In this document: positions 6,701-50,598 of the stretch, in pieces
How the letters are laid out: each line of letters begins with the position of its first letter
Numbering within the stretch: position 1 is the first letter of the stretch
The notes under the pieces: model-generated
The model's input: the letters and a program-made list of their open reading frames with translations, nothing else
Told to the model about the DNA's origin: nothing
Database searches by the model: none
Made by a program: the position numbers and the translations under genes
Origin: Fuscovulum ytuae
GTDB lineage: Bacteria; Pseudomonadota; Alphaproteobacteria; Rhodobacterales; Rhodobacteraceae
Assembly (NCBI RefSeq): GCF_029953595.1
Contig: NZ_CP124535.1
Span: forward strand, 1,582,001-1,646,000
DNA: 64,000 nucleotides
Direction: 5' to 3'

Positions 6701-6746
6701 CCCATCCCCCCGTTGCGCGGAGCCCCAAAACAGCGGGCGGTGCGTG

Positions 6747-6788
6747 ACCACAATATGCGGCACAGAATACGGCACAAAACAGGGCACA
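6747..6788 (-). repeat. 12-bp-period hexamer array, locus 1
   Basis: Hexamers on the plus strand at 6747 (ACCACA), 6759, 6771 and 6783 (all GGCACA) repeat on an exact 12-bp period; on the minus strand they read TGTGCC. The array begins 18 bp after the rraB stop and is in the same orientation as that gene. Homologous arrays lie at 25155 and 50533. Confidence 0.75.
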
Positions 6789-6805: not shown

Positions 6806-7117
6806 CTATTCAGCCAATTCCCAGCCATCGGGATAGAAATCATGCGCCAGCGCGATCTCTGTGGCCAGCCGCTCCTTGTCCCAGATCGCCTCGGGCGTCA
6901 CCGGAATCGGGCCGAAACTGGCAATGACCGTCTCGCCATCCCCGACCCGCCGCGTCTTGAAACCCCTTGATTTCAAGGCCTTTTCAAAGGCACCCCAATT
7001 TGCATCCGTCTCTTCGACGAAGAAGATGAAGTCGATCACCGATTGCGCGGGCAGGCCCTTCACCCCCTTGAAGGTGGCAAAGGTCTCGCGGCGCTGGGCT
7101 TCGAAATTATGCGACAT
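6806..7117 (-). CDS. rraB: Ribonuclease E inhibitor RraB family protein
   Basis: A 103-residue soluble acidic protein whose pattern (DFIFFVEETDANWGAFEKALKSRGF in the middle, GWELAE end) fits the RraB domain, which in E. coli binds and restrains RNase E. ATG 7117 has GGAGAAC directly upstream. It ends 106 bp before the FNT gene and starts 12 bp after the 8-oxoguanine deaminase, so it may share that transcript. In Rhodobacter RNase E processes both UpsM and CcsR RNAs, loci also present here; a functional link is inference. Confidence 0.8.
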   Translation of the reverse strand: MSHNFEAQRRETFATFKGVKGLPAQSVIDFIFFVEETDANWGAFEKALKSRGFKTRRVGDGETVIASFGPIPVTPEAIWDKERLATEIALAHDFYPDGWELAE

Positions 7118-24523: not shown

Positions 24524-24797
24524 GATTATCCGAAGAATGGGCCAAGATCGGCATTGGAACGGGGGTTTTTCCGCAAAGAATGCCCCAGATTCGCCCCAGA
24601 CTGGCGCAGTATGACCAGCCGATCCCACATTTTCCCATGAGGTGATTCGTCTGGAACGGCGCATCCCATGCCGTCCCATGCAGGCATTCCGCCACGCCCC
24701 GGCATCCGCCAAAGCTGCGCCCTTGCCCCTTCATCTTGGCCCAAATACGCCTCTTGCCCCGCTGGTCACGGGCGCAAGGCCGCAGAAAGGGAACGCC
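24524..24797. other. Upstream intergenic DNA with further TGGG boxes and one CTTCATCTTGG motif
   Basis: No gene is supported. Minus-strand TGGGN boxes occur at 24633-24637 and 24623-24627 (10-bp period), and at 24594-24598 and 24583-24587 (11-bp). CTTCATCTTGGCCCAAATAC lies at 24729-24748. The long frames on both strands here have no homologous character or ribosome sites. Confidence 0.5.
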
Positions 24798-25097: not shown

Positions 25098-25205
25098 TTG
25101 TGCAGCCCTGCACGGTTAACCAATTTCTGGCCCCGCTCTCTGCCCGAATTTGTATGCACAGTTTGCGGCACAAAAGGCGGCACAGAACAGGGCACAGCCA
25201 TTTTC
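25098..25205 (-). repeat. Repeat element with 12-bp-period hexamer array, locus 2
   Basis: Hexamers TGCACA (25155) and GGCACA (25167, 25179, 25191) repeat every 12 bp. The flanking ~60 bp (including a TTAACC block and CTGCCCGAATTTGTA) also match locus 3 at 50475-50585, so loci 2 and 3 are copies of one element of about 110 bp. It lies 38 bp after the mrp stop, reading in the mrp direction. Confidence 0.75.
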
Positions 25206-25233
25206 GGCCAACCCCCTGCGCCGCCTCGCAAAT

Positions 25234-26786: not shown

Positions 26787-26792
26787 GGTTTC

Positions 26793-26880
26793 TTGCTGAA
26801 CCCCACCTCCTCCCGGGGTTCGTGGCAAAAGCGGCGGCGCTTCTCCTCCTCCCTGGCGCCGCCGCACTTTGATCCAGAAG
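26793..26880 (+). ncRNA. ccsR1: CcsR1-like (cuckoo) small RNA
   Basis: Two hairpins each expose CCTCCTCCC in the loop: 26799-26820 (stem AACCCC / GGGGTT) and 26831-26865 (10-bp stem GCGGCGGCGC / GCGCCGCCGC). The loop motif is complementary to Shine-Dalgarno sequences. Two such hairpins per RNA define the cuckoo family in Rhodobacterales and Rhizobiales. RNA ends are estimates set by processing. Confidence 0.85.
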
Positions 26881-34758: not shown

Positions 34759-34833
34759 GCGGGCGTAGCTCAGGGGTAGAGCATAACCTTGCCAAGGTTA
34801 GGGTCGTGAGTTCGAATCTCATCGCCCGCTCCA
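34759..34833 (+). tRNA. tRNA-Gly (GCC)
   Basis: 75 nt with encoded CCA. Acceptor GCGGGCG / CGCCCGC, D-arm with AGCTCAGGGGTAGAGC, anticodon loop in AACCTTGCCAAGGTT (anticodon GCC), T-arm with GTTCGAATC. Confidence 0.98.
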
Positions 34834-34943: not shown

Positions 34944-35018
34944 GCGGGCGTAGCTCAGGGGTAGAGCATAACCTTGCCAAGGTTAGGGTCGTGAGTTCGA
35001 ATCTCATCGCCCGCTCCA
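34944..35018 (+). tRNA. tRNA-Gly (GCC), second copy
   Basis: Identical over all 75 nt to the copy at 34759-34833, with encoded CCA. The flanks differ, so only the tRNA is duplicated or held identical. A small hairpin GAAGGTC / GACCTTC (35042-35060) follows. Confidence 0.98.
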
Positions 35019-50112: not shown

Positions 50113-50598
50113 CGCCCCGCGCCCTGCCCGGGCTTGACCCCCGCCCTACCCAGTTTCCGATGCGCAGGCCCTGAAGGATCAAACCCAACAGAGGCGGCAC
50201 CCCGTCTTGCCCCGTTAAGGTTAACGCCCTGCCCGCGCCCCTTCACCTTGGCCCAAATACTCAAAAGCCCCGCCCGACACTCGCGCTACGCCCAAAGGAC
50301 AAAGTCAAGGCCCGCCACCCTACCGCCCCGTTAAGGTTAACGCCCTGCCCCGCCCCTTCACCTTGGCCCAAATACTCAAAAGCCCCGCCCGACACCCGCG
50401 CCAAGGCCCACAGGCAAAAGACCCCCCGCCCCAACGAAAAAAGAGACATCCTCCTTCAGGCCACCGCGCCAAGATCTGTGCAGCCACGCACCCTTAACCA
50501 TAATTGGCGGCCCCTGCCTGCCCGAAATTGTATGCACAGTTTGCTGCACAAAAGGCGGCACAAATCCCGGCACAAGCCTTGCCAGCCAAACCCCTGAA
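50113..50598. repeat. 486-bp gene-free region: tandem duplication plus 12-bp-period array
   Basis: No gene is supported. Two ~78-bp copies (from 50209 and from 50325; period 116 bp) each carry TTAAGGTTAACGCC, then CTTCACCTTGGCCC and AAATACTC (motif at 50241-50262 and 50356-50377), then AAAGCCCCGCCCGACAC. They differ by one indel and few substitutions, so the duplication is recent. The 12-bp array follows at 50533. Confidence 0.7.
50475..50585 (-). repeat. Repeat element with 12-bp-period hexamer array, locus 3
   Basis: Hexamers TGCACA (50533, 50545) and GGCACA (50557, 50569) repeat every 12 bp. Like locus 2 it includes CTGCCCGAAATTGTA and a TTAACC block to the left. It starts 25 bp after the VOC gene stop, reading in that gene's direction. 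Confidence 0.75.

Follow-up and report, generated by a model that had tools for sequence, protein, structure and literature searches.

Three arrays of short boxes on a 12-bp period, found in the 64,000 nt stretch of Fuscovulum ytuae DNA analyzed here (the window), belong to a real family that is larger than first reported. The family resides at the level of DNA, is oriented along replication and largely inherited vertically, and probably consists of cooperative binding sites. The results suggest a chromosomal mark for protein binding of a kind not yet described, and neither an RNA signal nor a mobile repeat; a literature search found no description of such arrays.

The window arrays and their family

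Direct reading of the plus strand confirmed the three arrays of the preliminary description, at 6747-6788, 25155-25196, and 50533-50574. Every array contains four boxes resembling (C/G/T)GCACA on a period of exactly 12 bp, separated by 6-nt spacers that differ. Array 1 (type A, 6744..6788, plus strand) consists of GTGACCACA followed by three GGCACA boxes; its first box is CCACA, not GCACA, and its subtype is unlike that of the other two. Array 2 (type B, 25146..25196, plus strand) consists of GAATTTGTATGCACA and three GGCACA boxes and is accompanied by a type B left module (25100..25122, plus strand; GTGC-N6-GCAC, then TTAACCA) and a right module (25197..25212, plus strand; GCC-N4-TCGGCCAAC). 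In array 3 (type B, 50525..50574, plus strand), AAATTGTATGCACA is followed by TGCACA, GGCACA, and GGCACA, and the left module (type B, 50478..50500, plus strand) again reads GTGC-N6-GCAC, then TTAACCA. A three-box pattern with up to three mismatches had seven overlapping matches in the window, compared with 0.34 expected, and none of 100 shuffles reached seven.

Minus-strand open reading frames end at 6806, 25234, and 50599 near arrays 1, 2, and 3, respectively, leaving gaps of 18, 38, and 25 bp between the array and the stop codon, in agreement with the range of 18-38 bp given previously. The neighbors had been named rraB, mrp, and VOC. Pfam backs mrp (Mrp, PF10609, 2e-100) and VOC (VOC/glyoxalase, PF00903, 2e-9), whereas the match for rraB is weak (RraB, PF06877, E 0.001, 20.1 bits, cut-off 23.3). 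Elsewhere in the window, positions 26788-26870 match the CcsR1 RNA family (RF02791, 103.8 bits), two tandem tRNA genes with identical Rfam scores lie at 34759-34830 and 34944-35015, and the stretch 24696-24751, which is matched over short lengths at several further positions in genomes of the genus, appears to be an additional intergenic repeat.

The search of the full genome and its relatives that had been proposed yielded a large family. In the F. ytuae genome (three contigs, 4.19 Mb in total), 91 places matched a 36-base pattern when three mismatches were allowed and none matched its reversed control, and a profile of 73 columns, built from 70 copies of 10 genomes, gave 100 matches. The script-based set comprised 93 places, one of them a register-shifted double, that is, 92 arrays, 90 on the chromosome and two on contig C3. 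Three subtypes share the array and differ on its left side: type B (18 copies; GTGC/GCAC, TTAACCA, then AAATTTGTATGNACA), type A with GTGGCCACA (24 copies), and type A with a CCACA start other than GGCCACA (50 copies). In the 70 profile copies, which had been picked by their boxes, the invariant columns, with one exception, belong to the boxes or to a GT located four bases ahead of the first AC; thus, the first box is half-palindromic, GT-N4-AC. By eye, the palindrome CGTTAACCTTAACG was seen about 20-30 bp to the left of a number of type A arrays, for example at 1133593 and 603685 of the F. ytuae genome.

Among the 19 genomes of the genus, 11 carry 42-115 profile matches each and 8 have none, so that the function of the arrays is not essential in the genus. 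Outside the genus, with 12 candidates scored per genome, 15 of 392 genomes matched, with 18 matches altogether and at most two per genome. Eight of these loci (L355-L362) were inspected by reading: the matches in G089, G068, G153, and G177 are coding or low-complexity sequence, those in G254, G022, and G001 look intergenic, and that in G108 (L359) lies inside an open frame and is a near-perfect 12-bp tandem repeat of about eight units of CCCAGACTGTGC. Named genomes matched by the pattern scan were the Rhodobacteraceae MAG Clear-D3 and Tabrizicola sp. TH137. Comparison of one type B element with plasmids, and of the type B pattern with viral contigs, gave no match.

Shared places and spacer dialects

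The arrays look largely vertically inherited. Of 100 arrays from nine relatives, 95 share their place and orientation with an F. ytuae array, 73 of them by both flanks and the rest by at least one: 60 of 63 in G303, 16 of 16 in G301, 8 of 8 in G104, 3 of 3 in G295, 3 of 5 in G299, 2 of 2 in G305, and the single arrays of G298, G310, and G302, the relatives other than G303 having been sampled mainly by their best matches. The place of array 3 is also occupied in G104, G301, and G310. In the parts of G301 and G104 homologous to the window, the scan recovers the arrays at mrp and VOC and nothing else; the blocks of G295 and G303 cover mrp only, and the mrp array passes. In G297, no array passes and the mrp array is decayed, and array 1 is comparable only with this genome. 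The mrp element is kept in eight other genomes with other spacers, its last boxes being decayed in G297 and G302, and the left module of array 2 is recognizable past mrp in eight other genomes, in some of them decayed.

At these inherited sites each genome has its own spacer dialect: the boxes are mostly kept while the spacers turn over. Among arrays that had been picked by their boxes, spacer identity was 0.35 for 12 orthologues of F. ytuae and G104 compared with 0.32 for non-orthologues, and 0.58 and 0.79 among the paralogues of G104 and F. ytuae, respectively; for the close relative G303, the values were 0.85 (orthologues), 0.80 (non-orthologues), and 0.85 (paralogues). The subtype can also switch at an orthologous place, as at 1653076 and 2294105, which are type A in F. 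ytuae and type B in G104.

In the gap at lpd, five carriers have 85-96 bp with an array, and five non-carriers have 54-58 bp without one. The period is inexact in some of these arrays, with boxes about 11, 12, and 13 bp apart in G298 and the last box off by one base in G301. Four of the five non-carrier gaps (L503-L506) contain GTGCATC-N4-GTGCATC, with an 11-bp period, a varying last base, and the opposite sense. Exact copies of this array occur at three further places in 380 kb of the non-carrier G296 (L492:10137, L497:12395, and L500:19153); two of them have TTAA..TTTCGTCTGC on the left, a module resembling that seen in carriers. In G296, the four copies are all on the strand with negative GC skew. 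When 380 kb of this genome was searched for 12-bp arrays irrespective of dialect, eight matches to GC-rich words were returned and none to GCAC, GTGC, or TGCA; the F. ytuae and G104 stretches in that search had been chosen with the array places known and are not an unbiased control.

Orientation along replication and symmetry to transcription

The main fixed relation of array sense is its orientation along replication. The GC skew of the sampled F. ytuae stretches flips near 2.3 Mb, taken as the origin, and near 0.8 Mb. With the terminus at the 0.80 Mb skew change, the TGTGCC strand is the leading strand, judged by arm, for 71 of 90 arrays (Fisher 5.7e-8), and with the terminus at 0.35 Mb for 66 of 90 (Fisher 5.1e-6). 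For the 0.80 Mb terminus, the bias is 47:13 for arrays with the right-hand gene pointing in and 24:6 for those with this gene pointing away. Judged by the skew within 30 kb, 77 of 90 arrays are polar, including all 18 of type B. The immediate skew, calculated for loci that had been chosen for holding arrays, placed TGTGCC on the G-rich leading strand in 86 of 92 cases in F. ytuae (3-5 kb) and in 58 of 58 in G303 (8-kb loci; 57 of 57 in a second count on the same loci). In G303, this polarity is unrelated to the majority gene strand, which agrees with the array in only 25 of the 58 loci. The two flanks of an array have similar skew, and the skew is stronger at array loci (0.143) than in the other stretches sampled (0.098).

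A similar picture was obtained for G104, in which type B arrays are on the minus strand in 10 of 10 cases from 0.61 to 2.20 Mb and on the plus strand in 8 of 8 from 2.42 to 4.13 Mb. Of the 83 profile matches in this genome (E < 0.001), 65 are polar with an origin near 4.155 Mb, a position chosen partly from the arrays themselves, and 63 with the origin at 0 (Fisher 2.7e-6). When both breakpoints were left free, the best split was 71 of 90 for F. ytuae and 67 of 83 for G104, above all 5000 label shuffles. Along G104, the number of matches does not rise toward the terminus (21, 18, 13, 20, and 11 in five bins from origin to terminus), and the polar share is lower near the terminus (19/21, 17/21, 19/21, and 10/20 by quartile). 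Several of the by-arm exceptions sit in stretches of reversed skew, as if inverted along with them. Since such stretches keep the old array polarity, polarity may record history rather than present selection; furthermore, the TGTGCC strand is rich in G and T, so that mutation bias could help to hold it on the leading strand.

With respect to transcription the arrays are symmetric: they show no preferred orientation relative to genes. With the neighbors written left/right in the frame of the array, the 90 chromosomal arrays comprise 20 ++, 38 +-, 10 -+, and 22 -- cases, based on genes called by a custom codon-based script, with 14 of the 93 places overlapping a predicted, mostly low-scoring open reading frame. 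By raw count, convergent gaps thus hold the most arrays and divergent gaps the fewest. The right-hand gene points in for 60 of 90 arrays, the commoner kind to which the three window arrays belong, and away for 30. Agreement between array sense and gene sense, as described previously, therefore holds for the window arrays and not as a genome-wide rule. The proposal that the arrays are RNA elements of 3′ UTRs, or terminators, drew on the three window arrays, which follow stop codons in the sense orientation. Given the symmetry over 90 arrays, it appears highly improbable: in addition, RNA folding of 47 of the 93 places was close to background (mean z of -0.3 to -0.6 compared with -0.05 to -0.3 for controls), without the stable hairpin typical of REP or MITE repeats, and none of the three Rfam matches in the window at gathering score lies at any of the three arrays.

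Cooperative direct-repeat sites would also be compatible with the arrays being operators of a regulator that controls the transcription of a large set of genes, and a few arrays are located directly before a predicted start codon (1653076, 27 bp; 1863356, 33 bp). However, divergent gaps, where operators would be expected, hold the fewest arrays (10 of 90) and convergent gaps the most, and a regulator would not predict replication polarity or even spacing, so that we regard this function as quite improbable.

Even distribution and helical phasing

In F. ytuae, 83 array loci (copies within 500 bp merged) are spaced more evenly than random (CV 0.66 vs. 0.98, P 0.0002), and the evenness is weaker in G104 (CV 0.78, P 0.014), both measured against uniform random positions. 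Evenly spaced, genome-specific versions are also known from the DNA uptake sequence (DUS) dialects of Neisseria, the copy numbers of which run to thousands. Biased uptake could yield shared places, genome-specific dialects, and even spacing, and the arrays could accordingly be DNA-uptake or packaging marks, for example of gene-transfer agents, kept by molecular drive. Compared with DUS, however, the arrays are far fewer (about 100), far longer, and polar, and we know of no uptake marks with strong replication polarity or whole-turn phasing; an origin of this kind is very unlikely.

Tandem pairs of arrays are spaced by near-whole helical turns. The 13 spacings are 105, 115, 115, 116 (four), 117, 126, 127, 137, 147, and 149 bp, the first member of the 127-bp pair being weak, and are close to 10-14 turns of 10.5 bp. 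The spacing of one orthologous pair is 147 bp in F. ytuae, 126 bp in G301, and 115 bp in G303, that of a second 137 bp in F. ytuae and 127 bp in G303, and that of a third 116 bp in both F. ytuae and G303. With one value per locus, including four spacings from match listings with orthology unchecked, the Rayleigh p was about 2e-5; the seven values that remain without the 116 class gave 0.003. The fit is equally good for periods of 10.5 and 11 bp and poorer for 12 bp. At such near-whole-turn spacings, both members of a pair appear to lie on one helical face. Kept boxes, changing spacers, and phased tandems together suggest cooperative protein binding to DNA. Thus, of the two functions for which selection on the hexamers had been proposed, the cooperative DNA-binding site gains support from boxes and a period that are mostly kept while the spacers change at the same loci across species, and additionally from the phasing, and the RNA element does not.

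Similar arrays at integrase genes

In three genomes of other genera, similar arrays, also on a 12-bp period and with almost the same boxes (TGTGCAGCA / TGTGCCACA), adjoin genes of DUF6538 tyrosine integrases. They lie directly upstream of the integrase gene in G254 and G022, and between a tRNA-Leu and the integrase gene in G140, where one box is inverted. All three integrases match DUF6538, that of G254 below the curated cut-off. Another G140 array, at a distance of about 14.5 kb, lies next to an apparent repeat of the tRNA end, as judged by eye; the two arrays (G140:C1 286391 and 300950; L520, L521) lie at both ends of an apparent 14.5-kb island with the tRNA-Leu and the DUF6538 integrase. 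A second G254 array, about 25 kb from the first, has no integrase in its 1-kb stretch, and the G001 array has no DUF6538 integrase within its 3-kb locus. The 3-5 kb loci around the 92 F. ytuae arrays contain no DUF6538-like open reading frame, nor were att core repeats found at these arrays. No binder was found in the carrier loci that were read: the only DUF6538 protein met there (L068, G303) is an integrase beside a tRNA-like gene, and its upstream stretch has by eye none of the array boxes. None of six integrase relatives from plasmids and phages had a clean 12-bp array according to a script; visual inspection showed two degenerate boxes at a distance of 22 bp for the Roseicitreum relative and, upstream of a distant relative on S. 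meliloti pSymB (L530), TTGCTACAT repeats at intervals of 11-12 bp. A literature search found no paper naming DUF6538. Because DUF6538 integrase genes adjoin such similar arrays, an integrase-like arm-binding domain is suggested as the best lead for the array binder.

The similar arrays at integrase genes and apparent island ends are also what would be expected if a small non-autonomous element with integrase arm-type sites had multiplied in an ancient burst, inserting with a replication-strand bias, and had left the arrays as relics that are now fixed. Some elements insert with such a bias, tandem copies about 116 bp apart recur, and convergent gaps hold the most arrays. We consider this origin rather unlikely in view of the 95 of 100 shared places, the tandem spacings, which at two orthologous loci differ between genomes by close to an integral number of helical turns, and flanking repeats that do not exceed chance (means for 92 arrays: direct, 7.05 vs. 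7.18 bp; inverted, 6.61 vs. 6.84 bp). Moreover, the boxes were kept while spacers of orthologues are hardly more alike than those of non-orthologues, which points to present function. The shared places, the kept boxes, and the lack of flanking repeats likewise speak against decayed copies of one transposable element, the alternative named in the preliminary description.

REP/BIME and MITE-type repeats occur in many dispersed intergenic copies, often between convergent genes, and the arrays resemble them in both respects. Unlike these repeats, the arrays have no strong hairpin or mobility signature, and they show shared places and replication polarity. A mobile repeat of the REP or MITE type was rejected because of the shared places and because the 92 arrays have no terminal repeats or target duplications.

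Discussion

We favor the explanation that the arrays are DNA sites for several copies of one protein with a chromosome-scale role, although as a whole we rate it as slightly less than an even chance. According to this model, several copies of the protein would assemble side by side on each array, on the half-palindromic first box, GT-N4-AC, and then on the three direct KGCACA boxes that follow at 12-bp intervals. The chromosome carries about 100 such arrays along its length, mostly intergenic and with TGTGCC on the leading strand, so that a machine traveling from origin to terminus would mostly meet them in the same sense. The resulting oriented nucleoprotein complexes might act in replication, segregation, or nucleoid folding, independently of the neighboring genes. 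Protein binding, a binder domain like the arm-binding part of the DUF6538 tyrosine integrases, and a use of the polarity are what we infer from the computed patterns. A more specific version, in which a domesticated integrase-type protein would read the evenly spaced, oriented arrays as a polar coordinate system in replication or segregation, its dialect drifting and the sites following, is speculative and on balance unlikely.

Several known systems share part of these features. KOPS and Chi are chromosomal sequences found preferentially on the leading strand. PMC5993296 describes AIMS as a polar sequence, also preferentially on the leading strand. Like AIMS and KOPS, the arrays are biased to the leading strand; in contrast to both, neither their number nor their strand bias rises toward the terminus in G104. 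Furthermore, whereas KOPS, AIMS, and Chi are 8-mers, the arrays span 41-45 bp with four boxes, at about 100 shared places and in genome-specific dialects.

The general anatomy of tyrosine-integrase arm-type site arrays is treated in PMC11963761. Like arm-type sites, the arrays are clusters of direct boxes, with the 12-bp period and near-identical boxes found beside the DUF6538 integrases; unlike them, they are about 100 solitary core-genome sites with no DUF6538-like open reading frame in 3-5 kb. The same paper describes head-to-tail cooperative binding by winged helix-turn-helix proteins of the BldC and RdfS type, with about one DNA turn per BldC molecule (PMC11963761). Head-to-tail cooperative binding is what we propose for the arrays as well, but the BldC and RdfS systems, as described there, have 9-bp repeats or no clear consensus and act in a promoter or att context (PMC11963761).

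The arrays thus combine dialects with shared places, and may offer a view on the joint change of a DNA-binding protein and its sites. To our knowledge, few sequences mark the direction from origin to terminus on bacterial chromosomes, and those we are aware of are short octamers. With about 100 large polar sites in 11 species of the genus and none in 8, the arrays would provide a clade-limited natural experiment on chromosome organization.
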